Positions 25,695-34,522 of a stretch of 34,522 bases of DNA are shown here, piece by piece. A program made the position numbers and the translations under genes. The notes under the pieces are model-generated. The model saw only the letters and a program-made list of their open reading frames with translations. It did no database searches and was not told where the DNA came from. Position 1 is the first letter of the stretch, and each line of letters begins with the position of its first letter. The stretch is from Achromobacter pulmonis (GTDB taxonomy: Bacteria; Pseudomonadota; Gammaproteobacteria; Burkholderiales; Burkholderiaceae_B): the NCBI RefSeq assembly GCF_902859765.1, contig NZ_CADIJV010000041.1, positions 1 to 34,522 of the forward strand, written 5' to 3'.

Positions 25695-27035
25695 ATGACG
25701 ACGTTCGACTTGAACGCCGGCGCCACGGCGCCGTTGGCAGACGAAGCCGACCTGACCGACCTGGCCGTGGACGGCACACTGCCGCCCGGGCTGGACGGGG
25801 TGCTGGTTCGCAACGGGCCCAATCCCTTGCGCGGCCGTTTCGAGGGCAACGACGTGCTGTCGTGGTGGCCGCAGCCGGCGATGCTGCATGCCATTGATTT
25901 TCGCGACGGACGCGCCAGCGGCTACCGCAACCGCTGGGCGCGCACCCGGATCTGGGCGCGCGAATATGCCCCGCAGGCCGTGGCCGCGCTGCCCGACACC
26001 AATCCCAACGTCAATGTGCTGCGCCATGCCGGCGAAATCCTGGCGCTGGCCGAGGGCGGGGCGCCGCTGGCGATGACGCCGGCGCTGGAATTCCTGGGCG
26101 CCAGCCGCCGCCATCCCGGCCTGGCGGGCGGGATGACAGCGCATCCCAAGGTGGACCCGGAGACTGGCGAATTGATGAGTTTCCGCGCCCATTGGGAGCC
26201 GCCCTGGCTGCGCTACGGCGTGACGGACGCCGACGGCCGCCAGCGGGTGGATCAGCGGATCGAGGTGCCGGGGCCGTCGATGATGCATGACATGGCGATC
26301 ACGGCGCGCTACAGCATCCTGCTGGACTTGAACGTCGCCTACGACTTTTCGATGTTGTCGCGCGGCTACCGCATGCCGCTGCGCTGGCATGACGAACGCC
26401 CGTCGCGGGTGGGCGTGATTGCGCGCCATGGCGGTCCGGTGCGCTGGTTCGAGGTGGCGCCATGTTTCATCCTGCATGTGGTGAATGCGTACGAGGCCGA
26501 CGCGTCGACGCTGGTGCTGGACGTGGTGCGCTATCCGGAATACCTGCGGCTGGCGCGCCATGGCACGGGTTTCGAGGACAATCCGCTGGGCGTGTTGTGG
26601 CGCTACGAGATCGACCTGGACGCCGGCCGTGTCGCCGGACGCGCGCTGGACGATGCCGGCATCGAATTGCCGCGCATCAACGAAGGCAGGACCGGCCGCG
26701 CCTACCGCTACGGTTATGCGGTGGAGCAACCCAACAACCGCGAGATGCGAGGCGTGGTGCGCTACGACCTGGAGAGCGGCGCGCGGCAGCGCTACCGGGT
26801 GCCGCCGGGCGACCAGAACAGCGAGCCCGTGTTCGTGCCGCGTCCTGAGGGGCGCGCCGAGGACGACGGCTGGGTGCTGGTGTGCGTGTATCGCCAGGCC
26901 AGCGATACCAGCGATGTGGTGGTGCTGGACGCGCGTGACCTGGCGGCCGGGCCGCTGGCGACGGTGCGTCTGCCCCGGCGGATTCCGGCGGGTTTCCATG
27001 GCGCCTGGCTGCCGCGCGAGGCGGGCGGCGGCTGA
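25695..27035 (+). CDS. Carotenoid oxygenase (RPE65/CCD) family protein
   Basis: A 446-residue non-haem iron dioxygenase of the family that cleaves carotenoids, apocarotenals or stilbenes at a double bond. The four iron-binding histidines of the seven-bladed propeller are visible: H150 (GMTAHPKVD), H198 (SMMHDMAI), H261 (FILHVVNAYE) and H435 (AGFHGAWLP). The N-terminus LPPGLDGVLVRNGPNPL is typical. No signal peptide is seen, so it is cytoplasmic. AGGAAA lies about eight bases before the ATG at 25695. No carotenoid or lignin-related gene is nearby, so a carotenoid is only one possible substrate; a plant apocarotenoid or stilbene is equally possible. It is divergent from the parD-like/map operon. 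Confidence 0.93.
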   Translation: MTTFDLNAGATAPLADEADLTDLAVDGTLPPGLDGVLVRNGPNPLRGRFEGNDVLSWWPQPAMLHAIDFRDGRASGYRNRWARTRIWAREYAPQAVAALPDTNPNVNVLRHAGEILALAEGGAPLAMTPALEFLGASRRHPGLAGGMTAHPKVDPETGELMSFRAHWEPPWLRYGVTDADGRQRVDQRIEVPGPSMMHDMAITARYSILLDLNVAYDFSMLSRGYRMPLRWHDERPSRVGVIARHGGPVRWFEVAPCFILHVVNAYEADASTLVLDVVRYPEYLRLARHGTGFEDNPLGVLWRYEIDLDAGRVAGRALDDAGIELPRINEGRTGRAYRYGYAVEQPNNREMRGVVRYDLESGARQRYRVPPGDQNSEPVFVPRPEGRAEDDGWVLVCVYRQASDTSDVVVLDARDLAAGPLATVRLPRRIPAGFHGAWLPREAGGG

Positions 27036-27085: not shown

Positions 27086-27826
27086 TCAGCGGCTCTTGGC
27101 GCGCGCGCTTTTCCGCGCGCCCGCGCGCGGCGCTTCCTTGGCGGGCGGCGCTGCCGCCGCCGTCAACTGCTCCATCCAGGCCAGCGCCTCGGTGTAGCCC
27201 ACGAACTGTTGCAGGTAGCCCGGCGACAGTTCGCGCATCAACGACAGCGCGCGGTGCACCAGTTGGTTGGAGTTGAGCGGGCCGGCGTTCTTGTGCACCT
27301 GTTCCTGCGACTGGCGCACTTGACGGTCGGCGCTCAGGCCCGACCAGATCTCGCGCAGTCCGTCCAGCACTGGCAGGTCGGGGTAGGCATCGCGGCGCGC
27401 CTGCGCCGCGATGGCGTCGGGGTCGTCGCCGGGGGCGCCGGGGTAGGCGAGGTATGCCGCCAGTTCTGCCAGCGGGCCGCGCGTGGCGGCCGCGGGCGCC
27501 ATGGCGGGCGTGGGCGAGTCGGCTTCGTCCGCCCCGGTGGCGGAGACCGTGGCGCGGGCCGCGGCGGCCTCGGCGATGCGCGCCGCATACGCGTCCAGCA
27601 ACGCCGCCAGGCGCGCGTCCAGCCTGGCGCGGGCCGCGCCAGCGTGGGCGGCGGCGCGCCGGGCCAGCGCTTCGATGAATTGGAAGCCGACCGGATCGAG
27701 GCGGTCGTCGCCGCGCTCGCGCCAGGCCTGCAAGGCGGCGAGCGTGGCGTCGCCGGGCGGTTCGGCCGGCGCTGCCGGTTGCGCGCCGTCCATCAGCGCC
27801 GGGCCAAGACCGCCATCACTGGCCAC
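27086..27826 (-). CDS. DUF2894-family protein, last gene of the DUF802/OmpA operon
   Basis: A 246-residue protein beginning with a GTG at 27826, with GGAG about seven bases upstream; the gene overlaps the end of the OmpA-like gene by 11 bases, so translation is coupled. There is no signal peptide or membrane helix. The N-terminal half (about 25-110) is alanine-rich and helical; the conserved core is at about 115-220 (PDLPVLDGLREIWSGLSADRQ, GPLNSNQLVHRALSLMREL, SPGYLQQFVGYTEALAWMEQL). The last 17 residues are rich in Ala, Lys and Arg, like a nucleic-acid-binding tail. The family is unknown. It always seems to go with an OmpA/MotB-like gene, so a cytoplasmic accessory or effector of that membrane complex is likely, by inference. 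Confidence 0.78.
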   Translation of the reverse strand: MASDGGLGPALMDGAQPAAPAEPPGDATLAALQAWRERGDDRLDPVGFQFIEALARRAAAHAGAARARLDARLAALLDAYAARIAEAAAARATVSATGADEADSPTPAMAPAAATRGPLAELAAYLAYPGAPGDDPDAIAAQARRDAYPDLPVLDGLREIWSGLSADRQVRQSQEQVHKNAGPLNSNQLVHRALSLMRELSPGYLQQFVGYTEALAWMEQLTAAAAPPAKEAPRAGARKSARAKSR

Positions 27827-28472
27827 GCGGGGTCTCCGTGCCGTTGGACGGCTTGGGAATCGGCGTGATTTCGACCCGGCGGTTCTGCGCGCGGCCGTCC
27901 TCGTCGGCGTTCGAGGCCACCGGCTGCTCGGCGCCGAAAGCGGCGGCGAACACCAGCGACGACGGCACGCCTTCGTCGATCAGGGCGCGGGTGACGGTCA
28001 GCGCGCGTTGCGCCGACAGGTCCCAGTTGTCGGCAAAGCGCCGGTTGCCTTCGCGCACCAGTTGGTCGTCGGTAAAACCGCTGACCATCAGGATCTCGTC
28101 GTTGTTCTTCAGATAGGCCGACAGCGGCGCGATCAGGCTTTGCAGCACCTCGCGGCCTTGCGGCTGCAACTGGTCGGAATTGAGCGCGAACAGCACGCTG
28201 CCGCTGATGCCGATGCGGCCGTTGATCAGCGTCACGCGGCCGGCCGCCAGCGGCGCGGCCAGGGCCTGTTCCAGTGTCTGGCGGCGCTGGGTCTCCTCCT
28301 GGCGCTGTTTGACCTCGCGTTCGAGCTGGGTCGACAGCTCCAGCTGCACGGCCACCACGCTCACCAGGATCAGCACGAAGGCGCCCAGCAGTACCGACAT
28401 CAGGTCGCCGAACACGGCCCAGGTCGGCACCGCCGGTTCGACGCCGCCGTCGATGTCCTCGCCCGCGCTCAT
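27816..28472 (-). CDS. OmpA/MotB-like peptidoglycan-binding protein with one transmembrane helix (ZorB/MotB-type stator subunit)
   Basis: A 218-residue protein. A short cytoplasmic N-terminus leads into one transmembrane helix (about 21-43, following PTWAVFGDLMSVLLGAFVL). D23 sits at its cytoplasmic edge, where MotB, TolR, ExbD and ZorB have the proton-carrying aspartate; the tryptophan before it is MotB-like. A coiled stretch (about 45-75) leads to an OmpA domain (about 85-205) with SGFTDDQLV and NWDLSAQRALTVTRALI, containing the Asp and Arg that hold meso-diaminopimelate. Its ATG overlaps the stop of the DUF802 gene by four bases (ATGA). It should anchor the DUF802 complex to the cell wall and carry ions. 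Confidence 0.9.
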   Translation of the reverse strand: MSAGEDIDGGVEPAVPTWAVFGDLMSVLLGAFVLILVSVVAVQLELSTQLEREVKQRQEETQRRQTLEQALAAPLAAGRVTLINGRIGISGSVLFALNSDQLQPQGREVLQSLIAPLSAYLKNNDEILMVSGFTDDQLVREGNRRFADNWDLSAQRALTVTRALIDEGVPSSLVFAAAFGAEQPVASNADEDGRAQNRRVEITPIPKPSNGTETPRGQ

Positions 28473-31400
28473 GCCGCTTGCGCTCCGGCGCTGGCAGCGC
28501 GCTGGCTGGCCAGCTCGCGCAGGTTCTCGACGATCTGCTTCTGCGACATGGTGCTCAGGTCGACCACCTCACGCGCCTGCGCCACGTAGTAGGCCAGTTG
28601 CTCGTCGCCACGCGCGATCGACTTGTCCAGCGCCGCCTCGATGCGCTCCAGATGCGCCACCAGCTTGTCGTTGGATTCGCCGAACAGGCGCACCGCGGCG
28701 CCGAAGGCTTCGCCCAGGCTGGCCACCTCGGCCGCGCCGCTGGTCACCTGCGCGGCCACGTCGTCCAGGCGCTCGGTTTCGGCTTCAACCTGCTGGGTGA
28801 ATTGCGCGCCGACCCGGTCCAGCAAATCCGAGGACGACGACACCAGCGCGTCCACCGCGCTGCGCTGCTCGCTGGAGGCGTGGTTGACCGCGTCCAGCAG
28901 CGTCGCCAGCGTGTCCAGCAGGCGGTTGCGCTCTTCCAGCATGGCGTTGTCGTAGGCCAGGCTGTCGGACAGTTTCTGCCGCAGTTCGCCGATGACCTCG
29001 GCGGCCGCGCGTGGCGCCTCGGAGGCGGCCTGCACCAGCTGGCCGATTTCGGCGATGGTGCCGCTGGCGTGGGCTTCGGTCTGGACGGCGATGTCCTGGG
29101 CGGTCTGCGCCAGGGTGGCGCAGATCTCCTGCTGCAGGGCGGCGCTGCGTGCGCCGGCCTGTTCCCATTCGTGGCGCAGCGCCTCGGCCATGCGGCCCAG
29201 CTCGCCGGTCCAGGCGGCCAGGCGTTCCTGGTCGCGCGCGGCCAGTTCGGCCTGCAGGCCGGCCTGCGACTGGCCCAGGGTCTGCAGTAGCGATGCCGAA
29301 TGCTGCTCGAAGGCGGCCGCGGCGGTGGTCAGGGCCTGCTGATTGTCGCTGGCCAGTTTCTCGTTGGCCAGTTCCTGGCGCACCTGGGCATCGCTCCAGG
29401 CCTGCGTGACGCCGCCGGCCGCCGTTTCCAGGCGAGCCGAGAGGTTTTCCAGCAGCGCGGCCTGCGCCTGGGTCTGGGTGGTGAGGTCTTGCGCGGTGCG
29501 CGCCAGCAACTGTTCCAGTTCCTGGTGGCGGGCGGCGGTGAGTTCGCCGGCCTGGCGCCATTCGCGGCCCAGATCGGTGGCGATGGCGCCGAGCGAGGCG
29601 TGCCAGGCCGCCAGGCGCTCCTCGTCCCGCGAGGCCAGGGCGGCCTGCAGGTCGGCATGCGACTGGTCCAGCGTGCGCAGCAGCGAGGCGGAATGTTGTT
29701 CGAAAGCGGCGGCCGCGGCGGCCAGGGCCTGCTGCGTGTCGCCGGCCAGCTTTTCGCTGGTCAGTTCCTGGCGCACCTGCGCCTCGGTCCAGGCCTGGGT
29801 CACGCCGCTGGCGGCCGATTCGATGCGGGTGGCGACCGTGTCCAGCAGCGCGGCCTGTGCTTCGGCACGGGTCGTCAGGTCCTGCGCGGTCTGCGCCAGC
29901 GTCTGGCTGACTTCCTGCTGGCGGGCGGCGGCTTGCGCGCCGGCCTGCTCCCATTCGCGGCCGAGCTTGTCGGTGAGGGCGCCGAGCGTGCCGGCCCAGG
30001 CGGCCAGGCGCTGCTCGTCGCGGGACGCCAGGGCGGCCTGCAGGTCGGCGTGCGACTGGTCCAGGGTGCGCAGCAGCGTCGAGGCGTGTTGCTCGAAGGT
30101 GGCGGCGGCGGCGGCCAGGGCCTCGCGGTTGTCGCCGGCCAGCTTTTCGCCGACCTGCGCCTGGCGTTCCAGCGCCTCGTGCCATTGCGCCGAGACGTTG
30201 CCGGCGGCGCTTTCCAGGCGGGCCGAGACGTTCTCCAGCAGGCCGGCCTGGGTCTGCGCGCGCTCGGTCAGTTCCTGCGCGGTGTGGGCCAGCGCCTGGT
30301 TGATTTCCCGCTGGCGTTCGGCGGCCTGCGCGCCGGCCTGCTGCCATTCCTGGCGCAGGGTGGCGGACAGGGCGCCCAGGGTTTCGGTCCACGCGGCCAG
30401 GCGTTGCTGGTCGCGCGAGGCCAGCTCGGATTGCAGGGCGGTGTGCGATTGGTTCAGCGTGCGCAGCAACGACGCCGAATGCTGCTCGAAGCTGGCGGCG
30501 GCGGCCGTCAGCGCCTGCAGGTTGTCGCCGGCCAGTTTCTCACTGGCGCGTTCCTGGCGGCTCAGCGCCACGTTCCAGGCCTCGGACATGCTGCCCGAGG
30601 ACGCTTGCAGGCGCTCGGACACGCTGTCCAGCAGGGCGGCCGAGCGTTGTTCGAAGGTCTGGGCGAAGCGTTCCAGCGAATCGCGCAGGTCCTGCGCCAG
30701 CGTTTCGCTGGCGCGCTGCTGGCCGGCCAGTGCCTGGTTCCAGATGCCCGCCACGTCGCGGGTGGCGGCTTGCAGGCCGGCGGTCATGCCGTCCAGTTGG
30801 CGCTGCACCGCCTGGGTCACGTTGTCATGCAGCGAGGCGGTCTCGCGCGACAGACCAGCCATGGTGGCTTCGACCGCCGGTTGCAAGGCCGCGCCGGCCG
30901 AACGGGCGCTTTCGGCCACGCTCTCCTTCATCGATTGTTCCAGCACGGCGGCCAGGCGCGCGTAGGCGGCCTCGGCCTTGCCCTGGAACGCGTCCTGGCT
31001 GGCGAGCTGGCGCTCGTTCAGGGTGTGGTTCTGCTGTTCCAGGTTGCGCATCATGGCGTCCAGGCGGTCGACCAGCGCGGGCATGGTCTCGGCCTGCTGT
31101 TGCAGCACTTCGGCCTGGCGTTGCAGCAGCTTGAAGCTCTCTTCGCGCTGGTGCGCCTGGCTGTACAGGCGCAGCGTGGTGGCGGCCTTGGCGTCGAGCA
31201 GTTGCGCGGCCAGGATGCGGTCGCGCCGGCACAGGGCGGCCAACAGGCCGAGCATGGCCGAGGTGGCCACGCCGGCGATCGAGGTGCCGAAAGCGAAGCC
31301 CAGGCCCTTGACCGGGGCGGCCAGCGAGGCACGGATGGCGGCCAGGTCGGTGGCGCTTTCCAGGGCGGTGCCGGTGCCGCGCAGCGTCACCACCATGCCC

Positions 31401-31768
31401 AGGAAGGTGCCCAGCATGCCCAGCAGCACCAGCAGGCCGACCAGGTAGGGCGTGAGCGCCGGGCCGGGCAGGCCCACGCGTTCGCCTTCGATGCGCAGCC
31501 GCACCGGATTGCGCAGCGCGGCGGGCAACTGGTCGAGCCAGCCCCCCAGGCTGGCGGGCGCTTCCGACAGCTTGCCGACCGCGCCCCGCAGGGACGAGGT
31601 GGCCTGCTGGTAGCGCAGCAATTCGAGCGCGCCGGCCAGGTAGCAGGCGCAGATCAGCAGCGTGACGGCCAGGGCCAGGGGATTGGTGCCCGCGTAGCCC
31701 GCGCCGATCCAGCCGGCCACAGCCAGGCCACCGAGGAAAACAACAATATTGATCAGGTATTTGGACAT
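28469..31768 (-). CDS. DUF802 protein: MotA/TolQ/ZorA-like membrane unit with very long helical tail
   Basis: A 1,099-residue protein from the ATG at 31768 (MSKYLINIVVF). Four membrane helices are predicted at about 5-27, 31-52, 106-128 and 155-180. The third and fourth, with GLLVLLGMLGTFLGMVVTL (about 111-129) and KGLGFAFGTSIAGVATSAML (154-173), resemble MotA, TolQ, ExbB and ZorA ion-channel helices, with polar residues T121, T162 and S163 inside. After about residue 190 everything is alpha-helical and rich in Gln, Ala, Leu and Glu. Residues 372-426 are a first, short unit and residues 427 to about 905 contain four near-perfect 131-residue repeats (starts 427, 558, 689, 820). The last 190 residues are a different helical region. 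It is 10 bases after the DUF3348 gene and overlaps the OmpA-like gene by four bases. Confidence 0.88.
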   Translation of the reverse strand: MSKYLINIVVFLGGLAVAGWIGAGYAGTNPLALAVTLLICACYLAGALELLRYQQATSSLRGAVGKLSEAPASLGGWLDQLPAALRNPVRLRIEGERVGLPGPALTPYLVGLLVLLGMLGTFLGMVVTLRGTGTALESATDLAAIRASLAAPVKGLGFAFGTSIAGVATSAMLGLLAALCRRDRILAAQLLDAKAATTLRLYSQAHQREESFKLLQRQAEVLQQQAETMPALVDRLDAMMRNLEQQNHTLNERQLASQDAFQGKAEAAYARLAAVLEQSMKESVAESARSAGAALQPAVEATMAGLSRETASLHDNVTQAVQRQLDGMTAGLQAATRDVAGIWNQALAGQQRASETLAQDLRDSLERFAQTFEQRSAALLDSVSERLQASSGSMSEAWNVALSRQERASEKLAGDNLQALTAAAASFEQHSASLLRTLNQSHTALQSELASRDQQRLAAWTETLGALSATLRQEWQQAGAQAAERQREINQALAHTAQELTERAQTQAGLLENVSARLESAAGNVSAQWHEALERQAQVGEKLAGDNREALAAAAATFEQHASTLLRTLDQSHADLQAALASRDEQRLAAWAGTLGALTDKLGREWEQAGAQAAARQQEVSQTLAQTAQDLTTRAEAQAALLDTVATRIESAASGVTQAWTEAQVRQELTSEKLAGDTQQALAAAAAAFEQHSASLLRTLDQSHADLQAALASRDEERLAAWHASLGAIATDLGREWRQAGELTAARHQELEQLLARTAQDLTTQTQAQAALLENLSARLETAAGGVTQAWSDAQVRQELANEKLASDNQQALTTAAAAFEQHSASLLQTLGQSQAGLQAELAARDQERLAAWTGELGRMAEALRHEWEQAGARSAALQQEICATLAQTAQDIAVQTEAHASGTIAEIGQLVQAASEAPRAAAEVIGELRQKLSDSLAYDNAMLEERNRLLDTLATLLDAVNHASSEQRSAVDALVSSSSDLLDRVGAQFTQQVEAETERLDDVAAQVTSGAAEVASLGEAFGAAVRLFGESNDKLVAHLERIEAALDKSIARGDEQLAYYVAQAREVVDLSTMSQKQIVENLRELASQRAASAGAQAA
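29056..30490 (-). repeat. Tandem 393-bp in-frame repeats within the DUF802 gene
   Basis: Four head-to-tail units of 393 bases (131 codons) begin with FEQH at minus-strand positions 30490, 30097, 29704 and 29311, the last one fading near 29056. Units 2 and 3 are the most alike (LLRTLDQSHADLQAALASRD in both). Each unit carries two heptad-like parts, one resembling the short unit at residues 372-426. Confidence 0.85.
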
Positions 31769-31778
31769 AGTGTCCCGG

Positions 31779-32663
31779 TTAGCTGGCGCGAAGGGCGGCA
31801 AGCAGCCCTTCGACCGGTTGTAAACGAATATCCAGTTCGGCCAGCAGCACGCTGCGCATATCCTTGCGGAACGTCTCCAGCCACGCGCCCGGCGTGGGCG
31901 CGGGTCGTACGGGCGACGGCGCGCCGACTGGCGCCGCCACGCCCGGGCCCGCGCCGTTCTGCGGGCTGCCGTCGGGCGCATCCAACGCCTCGGCGTCGGC
32001 CGGCGCGTCAGCCCCGGCTGCGGCGGGCGTTTCGGCCGCGGCTTGCGCGTCAGTCTGTGCCGCCGCTTCCAGCGCGGCCTGTTCGGCCTGCCGCAGCCGG
32101 TCGAAATGCCCTTGCAGCAGCTTCGGAATCGCGCCCAGCAGGGTCCGCTCGCGCGGCAGCAGGGCGCGGTCCATGATGGCGTCCACCACCGCCAGCCGCG
32201 TCATTTCCGGCGTCTTGGCCGCGACCATGCCGCGCAGGCGGCTGCGCAGATTGCCGATACTGGTTTCCATCGTGTGCTGCAACGACAGATAGCGCTGACG
32301 GAAATTCGAATAATCGGCTTCGTCGGACTGCAGCGCCGCCACCTTGGCGGCCACCTGGCCCGGCATCATTCGTTTGGCGGCCGTGGCCGCGGTGTCGCTG
32401 GCGATGGCATCGGCCAGCGTGACGCGCACGCGTTCGCACTCGCGCTCTTCGGCGCTGCTGAACCTGCGCGCGCCGGGCGCGATCGCCGGCGGGCGGTTGT
32501 TCAGGGCCGCGGACAGGGCAATCGCGTCGGTCCAGCCGAGCCATTGGCTCAGATGATCGGACAACGGTTGCCGGGATTGCGGCGCGTCGACATCCGTCAG
32601 GCGAGTCAGCAAGCGAATGAGCGTCGGGCCGCTTAAACCTGTGCGCTGTGGGGCTTGCAACAT
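31779..32663 (-). CDS. DUF3348-family protein, first gene of the motor-like operon
   Basis: A 294-residue soluble protein from ATG 32663 (MLQAPQRTGLSGPTLIRLLTRLTD), with GGTGG just before the start. No signal peptide or membrane helix. Residues 1-205 are helical and conserved in the family (LSDHLSQWLGWTDAIALSAAL, YSNFRQRYLSLQHTMETSIG, LRSRLRGMVAAKTPEMTRLA). An alanine/proline linker (about 206-262) leads to a short C-terminal helix (FRKDMRSVLLAELDIRLQPVEGLLAALR), a common way to tether a protein to a partner. The gene starts the operon, 10 bases before the DUF802 gene. Function is unknown; a cytosolic partner of the membrane motor is inferred. Confidence 0.8.
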   Translation of the reverse strand: MLQAPQRTGLSGPTLIRLLTRLTDVDAPQSRQPLSDHLSQWLGWTDAIALSAALNNRPPAIAPGARRFSSAEERECERVRVTLADAIASDTAATAAKRMMPGQVAAKVAALQSDEADYSNFRQRYLSLQHTMETSIGNLRSRLRGMVAAKTPEMTRLAVVDAIMDRALLPRERTLLGAIPKLLQGHFDRLRQAEQAALEAAAQTDAQAAAETPAAAGADAPADAEALDAPDGSPQNGAGPGVAAPVGAPSPVRPAPTPGAWLETFRKDMRSVLLAELDIRLQPVEGLLAALRAS

Positions 32664-33475: not shown

Positions 33476-34522
33476 CTAGGCATCCGGCGGCGGCAGCGGG
33501 AGTAACAATGTCGTCGCGAAACCCGGCAGCGGCGGAGTGATCCAGCGCCGGGCGCGGCCGTGGCCGAACGGCTGCGCCCGGCCGCCAGCGGCCAATGCCT
33601 CCAGGGCGCGCTGCATCTGACGCTGGCTCGTGCCCGTGGCCAGGGCCAGGGCCGAACTGGACCACGCCTGGCCATCGGCCAGCAGCGCCAGCACCGCGGC
33701 ATGCCGCTCCCGCACCGGCGGCGCCAGTACCGCGACGGCGCCATCCGGCGGCGTCAGCGCAAACCCCTGCCGGGTAGCGCGGATCTGCGCCAGCGGCCCC
33801 AGCATCGCACGCAGCCGGCCGATCTCCACGCGCAGACGGGCGCGGTGGGTTTCGTCCGGATGGCGGCTGCGGAACGCCTGTGATATCAGCGCCTCGCGCG
33901 GCGCATCGCCGGGCCAGGCCTGCCCCAGGGCCTGCGCCAGGGTGAACAGCACCGGCCGGCTGGCCAGCGACACGGTCACGCCCGCGCCGTGCACGGCATA
34001 GCGGCAGGCGTCGATCACCAGCAGGTCCGACGCCAGCAGCGCCTCGACCTGCGCCAGGCGCAACTCCCGGGTCTGGCCGGCCATGTCCAGGCGCGCGGCC
34101 GGCGCCTCCAGTTGTGCGTGGGCCTGCCGCACTTCGGCTTGCAGGGCGGGAATGCCGGCTTGCGCGGCGGCCTGCCCGGCACGTGCCAGCGCGGCGCGCG
34201 CGGCGCCGGCCTGCACCCGGCGCAGGGCAATGCCGGCCAGGGTCAACTCATGCACCGCGCGCAGCGCGGGGGGAAAGGATGCGGGGTCCAGTTCCGCCAG
34301 CAGCTTTTCCGCCGGCCCCAGGTGCCCGATCAGCACCAGGCGGCGGCCCGCCAGATAGGCCGCATACGCCGCGTTGCGCGCATCGCCATGCCTTGCCAGC
34401 GTGTCGCGCGCCGCGTCCAGCGCGGCGCTGGGCCAGCCCAGGTCGCGCGCGGCCAGCGCGATCTCGGCCTCGGCCACGACGCAGCGGGCCCGCGCCACCG
34501 GCTCGGTGGCGCCAAAGGCGCG
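33476..34522 (-). CDS. Transcriptional regulator with helical N-domain and two winged-helix domains (5' end missing)
   Basis: The frame is open through the right edge, so the start is beyond base 34522; at least 348 residues are present. The N-terminal part consists of short alanine-rich helix pairs in the TPR manner (about 130 residues). Next comes an OmpR/SARP-like winged helix (VSLASRPVLFTLAQALGQA, DETHRARLRVEIGRLRAMLG, RATRQGFALTP). A second helix-turn-helix near the C-terminus (AWSSSALALATGTSQRQMQRALEALA) has a wing GHGRARRWI. This combination suggests a DNA-binding activator with its own sensing repeats. It lies 36 bases upstream of the beta-propeller gene in the same direction. The ligand and target are unknown. 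Confidence 0.75.
   Translation of the reverse strand, partial: RAFGATEPVARARCVVAEAEIALAARDLGWPSAALDAARDTLARHGDARNAAYAAYLAGRRLVLIGHLGPAEKLLAELDPASFPPALRAVHELTLAGIALRRVQAGAARAALARAGQAAAQAGIPALQAEVRQAHAQLEAPAARLDMAGQTRELRLAQVEALLASDLLVIDACRYAVHGAGVTVSLASRPVLFTLAQALGQAWPGDAPREALISQAFRSRHPDETHRARLRVEIGRLRAMLGPLAQIRATRQGFALTPPDGAVAVLAPPVRERHAAVLALLADGQAWSSSALALATGTSQRQMQRALEALAAGGRAQPFGHGRARRWITPPLPGFATTLLLPLPPPDA

Follow-up and report, generated by a model that had tools for sequence, protein, structure and literature searches.

Does the operon described here from Achromobacter pulmonis, in which a MotA-like membrane protein with a very long tail is paired with a MotB-like partner, encode a new kind of ion-driven motor or a known one, and is phage defence its main role in this genus? 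All four of its genes lie on the minus strand of the window (the whole stretch of 34,522 nucleotides that was analyzed) and occupy exactly the interval 27086-32663 assigned to them by an earlier, sequence-only reading, in the order DUF3348, DUF802/MotA-like, MotB/OmpA-like and DUF2894. The DUF3348 gene (31779..32663) encodes a protein of 294 aa (Pfam PF11828, 304 bits, 1e-90; PADLOC ZorG3, 523 bits over 1-294) and is followed by a DUF802 gene (28469..31768) whose 1099-aa product is matched over 1-1099 by PADLOC ZorA3 (1821 bits) and in five stretches by Pfam DUF802 (1e-57). The third gene (27816..28472) encodes a protein of 218 aa with an N-terminal membrane helix (PADLOC ZorB3, 387 bits over 5-213), whose proposed OmpA-like peptidoglycan-binding domain is borne out by Pfam (OmpA, 5e-18), and the fourth, with a GTG start (27086..27826), a DUF2894 protein of 246 aa (Pfam PF11445, 189 bits, 1e-55; PADLOC ZorF3, 422 bits over 12-246). 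The gene coordinates confirm the ATGA overlap said to join the middle genes, ZorA and ZorB, and the DUF2894 gene overlaps the ZorB gene by 11 bp.

The operon is an intact Zorya type III locus of ordinary make-up, and the system type is already known. ZorA with a long tail, ZorB with an OmpA domain and a membrane-helix Asp, DUF3348 and DUF2894 are all present, and the PADLOC type III models cover most of the length of all four proteins. The gene content is identical to that of the type named by Payne et al. in 2021 for 6,401 loci of the same make-up (PMC8565338). The association of DUF3348 and DUF2894, taken earlier for two unknown partners, is already described for Zorya type III in the available text of that paper, with names that are swapped between sources: DUF3348 is ZorF in the text of PMC8565338 and ZorG3 in PADLOC-DB, and DUF2894 is ZorG in the former and ZorF3 in the latter. 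NCBIfam places ZorB in a hypothetical-protein model (384 bits) and matches ZorA only with weak ZorA models, at 22 bits versus a cut-off of 250. Zorya types I and II carry ZorC/ZorD or ZorE, where the window operon has DUF3348 and DUF2894 instead; as had been stated, the operon is without these three, and no PADLOC match to ZorC, ZorD or ZorE occurs among the 14 window proteins scanned, which sets the locus outside types I and II. The OmpA domain is common to both of those types and the window ZorB. Phage defence, one of the roles first considered, gains support from a type III relative: with the system of S. nitritireducens, at least one phage plaqued less well on E. coli BL21-AI, and the type III test published in the available text is of this single Stenotrophomonas relative, plasmid-borne and in a foreign host (PMC8565338).

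The PADLOC ZorA3 and ZorB3 matches bear out the earlier recognition of a motor of MotAB/ZorAB type whose cytosolic tail is very long. The ZorA membrane motor core (residues 1-216; 31121..31768), supported by an alignment of 26 ZorA cores and a PDB sequence match to 8vvn_C, contains the motifs GMLGTFLGM and GFAFGTSIAG, correctly picked out before, at residues 117-125 and 157-166. Across 26 aligned sequences T121, T162 and S163 are invariant, and T121 and S163 recur in the two type I ZorA proteins from the genus, with which the core motifs align. A 19-residue scan, a measure of hydropathy and no topology test, peaks from residues 5, 33 and 109 and more weakly from 162, which fits four putative membrane helices. 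Kinship of the core was only partly as foreseen: the profile of 26 cores found type I ZorA, 8vvn_C being its sole PDB sequence match at E<=1 (E 1e-4), but no MotA, TolQ or ExbB chain at that threshold. The ExbB/ExbD and TolQ/TolR pairs belong to the same broad channel family by the PADLOC description MotA/ExbB/TolQ, and the OmpA domain of the window ZorB distinguishes it from them, as the long cytosolic tail distinguishes the window ZorA from the flagellar stator MotA/MotB. The ZorB profile (27 rows), for its part, matched the periplasmic domains of MotB and PomB in PDB and further domains of OmpA type; its positions 8-201 matched 8vvn_B. The MotB-type Asp proposed for ZorB, D23 (codon 28404..28406), proved to be conserved within the motif W..F.DL in 76/76 complete relatives among the best 80 of 488 matches, and two type I ZorB proteins from the same genus have an Asp in the corresponding alignment column. 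Two of the outcomes named beforehand as refuting the motor reading, a membrane part with no motor relative in profile searches and a D23 that varies among homologues, did not occur. PDB structures of Zorya types I/II are 8vvn, 8vvi and 8qyd, the last of E. coli origin.

Conservation of the operon was assessed in the best 80 of 488 confirmed matches in genome contigs, a sample that for this reason leans to near relatives and is chiefly drawn from Achromobacter, Paraburkholderia, Caballeronia and Cupriavidus. All four genes occur in the same order in 76/80 of these loci, the remaining four (L084, L085, L088, L127) being truncated where their contigs end. Of the 76, all but L080 keep the 4-bp overlap of ZorA and ZorB (75 loci), and 72 keep the 10-bp gap between DUF3348 and ZorA. 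Mean column identity is 83% for the ZorA core (26 rows), 86% for ZorB (27 rows), 43% for DUF3348 (16 rows) and 40% for DUF2894 (26 rows), values that are comparable only roughly since the row sets differ. The DUF3348 proteins of A. dolens and A. insuavis are 82% identical to that of the window. In L080 (13898-14926), likewise from A. pulmonis, the ZorA frame ends ~1 kb short of ZorB, unlike in the 75 other complete loci, owing either to a split tail or to an assembly error.

About 870 residues follow position 230 of the window ZorA, versus 236-696 and 100-378 in type I and II proteins. Self-comparison peaks at offsets of 131, 262 and 393 residues and reveals a shaft of 131-residue repeats (~residues 380-909; 29042..30631), in which identity at offset 131 is 40-82% in 40-residue stretches over residues 380-780. 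The earlier estimate of ~130 nm for 900 helical residues is sound as arithmetic, and proline is absent between residues 297 and 919. The hydrophobic period of the tail, 3.65 residues, is hendecad-like, near 11/3 (power 20.6 at 3.65 versus 0.33 at 3.5 in the window protein; means of 11.1 versus 0.70 over 76 relatives from the best 80 of 488 matches). Within that same best 80 of 488, the internal period that fits best is 131 residues in 15/16 Achromobacter proteins and 87 in 29/60 others; 47 of 75 ZorA lengths (L080 left out) fall within 3 residues of 698+87k, versus 6.0 expected if uniform, with 28 outside; and 10 of 15 Achromobacter lengths are 1098, 1099 or 1229, differing by 131, while the remaining five measure 1076, 1200 (in three cases) and 1207, all of these counts being descriptions and not probabilities because the relatives are not independent. 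Tail length, then, often differs between species by steps of 87 or 131 residues. These steps equal 8 and 12 hendecads to within one residue, and hence changes in tail length seem to preserve the phase of the helix. Beyond the shaft, the last 190 residues (910-1099; 28472..29041) are as conserved as the motor core, with a mean majority-residue fraction of 0.88 as compared with 0.86 for residues 1-216 and 0.75 for residues 217-416 (76 proteins from the best 80 of 488), a pattern suggesting that this tip may dock the partner proteins.

Those partners, DUF3348 and DUF2894, gave no match to nuclease profiles in Pfam, NCBIfam or PADLOC and, unlike ZorD and ZorE, would therefore be expected to serve as adaptors or inhibitors in some process of host or phage, or to recruit another host protein; any such action is a guess, since their structures are predicted with intermediate confidence (mean pLDDT 76 and 70). 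Our search of the literature found no account of what the two proteins do. In two genomes (G185 and G186) the match to the DUF3348 gene is weak and broken into three segments, a hint of a distant subfamily.

The best explanation overall, to which we assign a probability of roughly 0.75, is that of a type III Zorya locus in Achromobacter with an ion-driven motor, a shaft and a partner-handling tip. In types I and II, ZorA and ZorB assemble in a 5:2 ratio with a pentameric rod, and the Asp, the tail and binding to peptidoglycan are all required (PMC11890865, available text). By analogy, five ZorA and two ZorB subunits would make up an inner-membrane ion channel and rotary unit, anchored to peptidoglycan by ZorB. 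Disturbance of the envelope, for example by phage entry, might cause ZorB to grip peptidoglycan and ions to flow, whereupon ZorA, with its five-stranded shaft of ~130 nm, would turn or strain; the conserved tip could then recruit or release DUF3348 and DUF2894, which would act in the cytosol. Phage infection of B. cenocepacia K56-2 alters the transcript level of one or two genes at the start of its Zorya III operon (PMC12584637, available text). How an ion-driven motor could signal over ~100 nm, and whether its function is defence or lies at the envelope, might be approached through the conserved tip, a shaft whose length changes in steps, and the genus-wide fixation described below.

Within Achromobacter, DUF3348 is single-copy in 41/43 genomes and is held by 40/40 good ones, the two misses being only 78% and 57% complete. 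Among controls in the genus, N6_Mtase was found in 26/40 good genomes, with many matches weak, and the ZorA model that was run, ZorA_1, matched 3/43 genomes, none above its cut-off. Two of these three matches are type I Zorya by PADLOC, which is thus found in 2/43 genomes; the third (G023), adjoining a DUF3348 gene, is most likely the type III ZorA of that genome. The two type I loci (L173, 3344-11646; L174, 6526-14768) belong to genomes that also carry type III, and in one of the pair the ZorA gene lies ~15 kb from an N6_Mtase gene. Type III Zorya, by its distribution, looks fixed in Achromobacter, unlike a mobile add-on, and we found no report of this fixation in the literature searched. At the scale of the family, DUF3348 occurs in 94/222 good genomes and 15/42 sampled genera, and type III Zorya is therefore dispensable there. 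Samples of the order and class gave 29/392 genomes (two of them below the family cut-off) and 8/364, respectively; a Burkholderiaceae-like genus (that of G509, by kin) gave 47/54, and a sample of the family of G815 gave 78/196 genomes and 16/46 genera. The distribution of the three Zorya types has been called typical of anti-phage systems (PMC11890865, available text).

Patchy presence and an island context, as would mark a mobile defence system, were not found. None of the 10 neighbouring window proteins scanned has a PADLOC match. Flanks were compared in six genera of the family with at least two loci fetched, and four of the six share flanking genes, numbering ~8-10 (g8), 7 (g7), 10 (g31) and 11 (g34); the pairs from g9 and g5 have none in common at the threshold used. 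Copies occur in 27/72,556 plasmid records; every one of these replicons measures 0.37-3.5 Mb, and 7/27 are predicted to be mobilizable. DUF3348 is held by 0/50,697 phage records, a count that does not separate Zorya types because type I ZorC is also at 0, and 57 pattern matches in viral contigs included no relative. In a quick tree of 97 rows, 18 Achromobacter rows fall on one side of a branch with support of 94, and g7, g8, g31 and g34, with two or three rows apiece, are likewise set apart (support 99-100). Paraburkholderia, Burkholderia and Caballeronia are mixed in this tree, and Dyella with Rhodanobacter is nested among them; that nesting within Burkholderiaceae, together with the scattered Burkholderia rows, suggests some transfer.

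Several other accounts of the operon were weighed against these data. The sequence-only reading held it to be a fifth type of MotA/MotB-like motor with two unknown partners, and the absence of ZorC, ZorD and ZorE from the operon, along with a tail longer than in solved systems, would agree with this; yet the gene set is exactly that of published Zorya type III, by the PADLOC models and the available text of PMC8565338, which refutes the claimed novelty, and the core profile matched only ZorA at E<=1, leaving such a motor very improbable. Even less credence attaches to the idea that the reading frames came together by chance or have decayed. Long shadow frames do occur, such as one of 958 aa antisense to ZorA (window 29300-32176, plus strand), most likely a by-product of GC-rich coding sequence, but the four proteins belong to curated families, their gene order is fixed in 76 of the best 80 of 488 matches, and the ZorB column identity of 86% adds to a conservation that refutes this account.

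A more serious contender, although in our estimate an unlikely one, is that type III Zorya serves mainly as a resident envelope module for peptidoglycan or membrane stress, the anti-phage effect in E. coli being a side effect or a facet. The same distribution that is unlike that of a mobile defence system, and so weighs against defence in the explanation preferred above, speaks for this module: a single DUF3348 copy in all 40 good Achromobacter genomes, its frequency in the Burkholderiaceae-like genus (47/54), flanks in common within four of six genera, no PADLOC match among the 10 window neighbours scanned, and no relative in phage records or viral contigs. A CRISPRi screen in B. cenocepacia K56-2 points the same way, in that knock-down of predicted defence genes was without effect in the available text, where the authors also list limits of the screen (PMC12584637). 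On the other hand, core defence systems exist: one survey found 13.6% of complete defence systems in 90% or more of the genomes of a species, and prints the type III Zorya of R. solanacearum as an example (PMC13064858, available text). Reduced plaquing was, moreover, measured (PMC8565338), flanks differ within two of six genera, the tree points to some transfer, only 15/42 sampled family genera hold DUF3348, and the phage records are equally empty of type I ZorC. We entertain, with comparable reserve, a broader proposal in which type III Zorya would be a resident, mostly vertically kept modular motor, with motor and tip fixed and the shaft evolving by helical units of ~87/131 residues, whose tip might drive the two partners, neither of them acting as a nuclease; through these, strain on peptidoglycan or the envelope would be passed on to a host process, phage resistance being one outcome.

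The outer upstream gene of the window (33476-34498), with a weak helix-turn-helix match, is present in the fetched upstream flank of 15/17 Achromobacter-named loci, in either orientation and up to ~9 kb away, and the aminopeptidase gene beside the window operon lies downstream in 12/17. Between the operon and the aminopeptidase gene, the window also contains a gene for an RPE65-type carotenoid oxygenase (25695-27035), a relative of which adjoins the operon in L057, L058 and L059 alone among the 17 Achromobacter-named loci.
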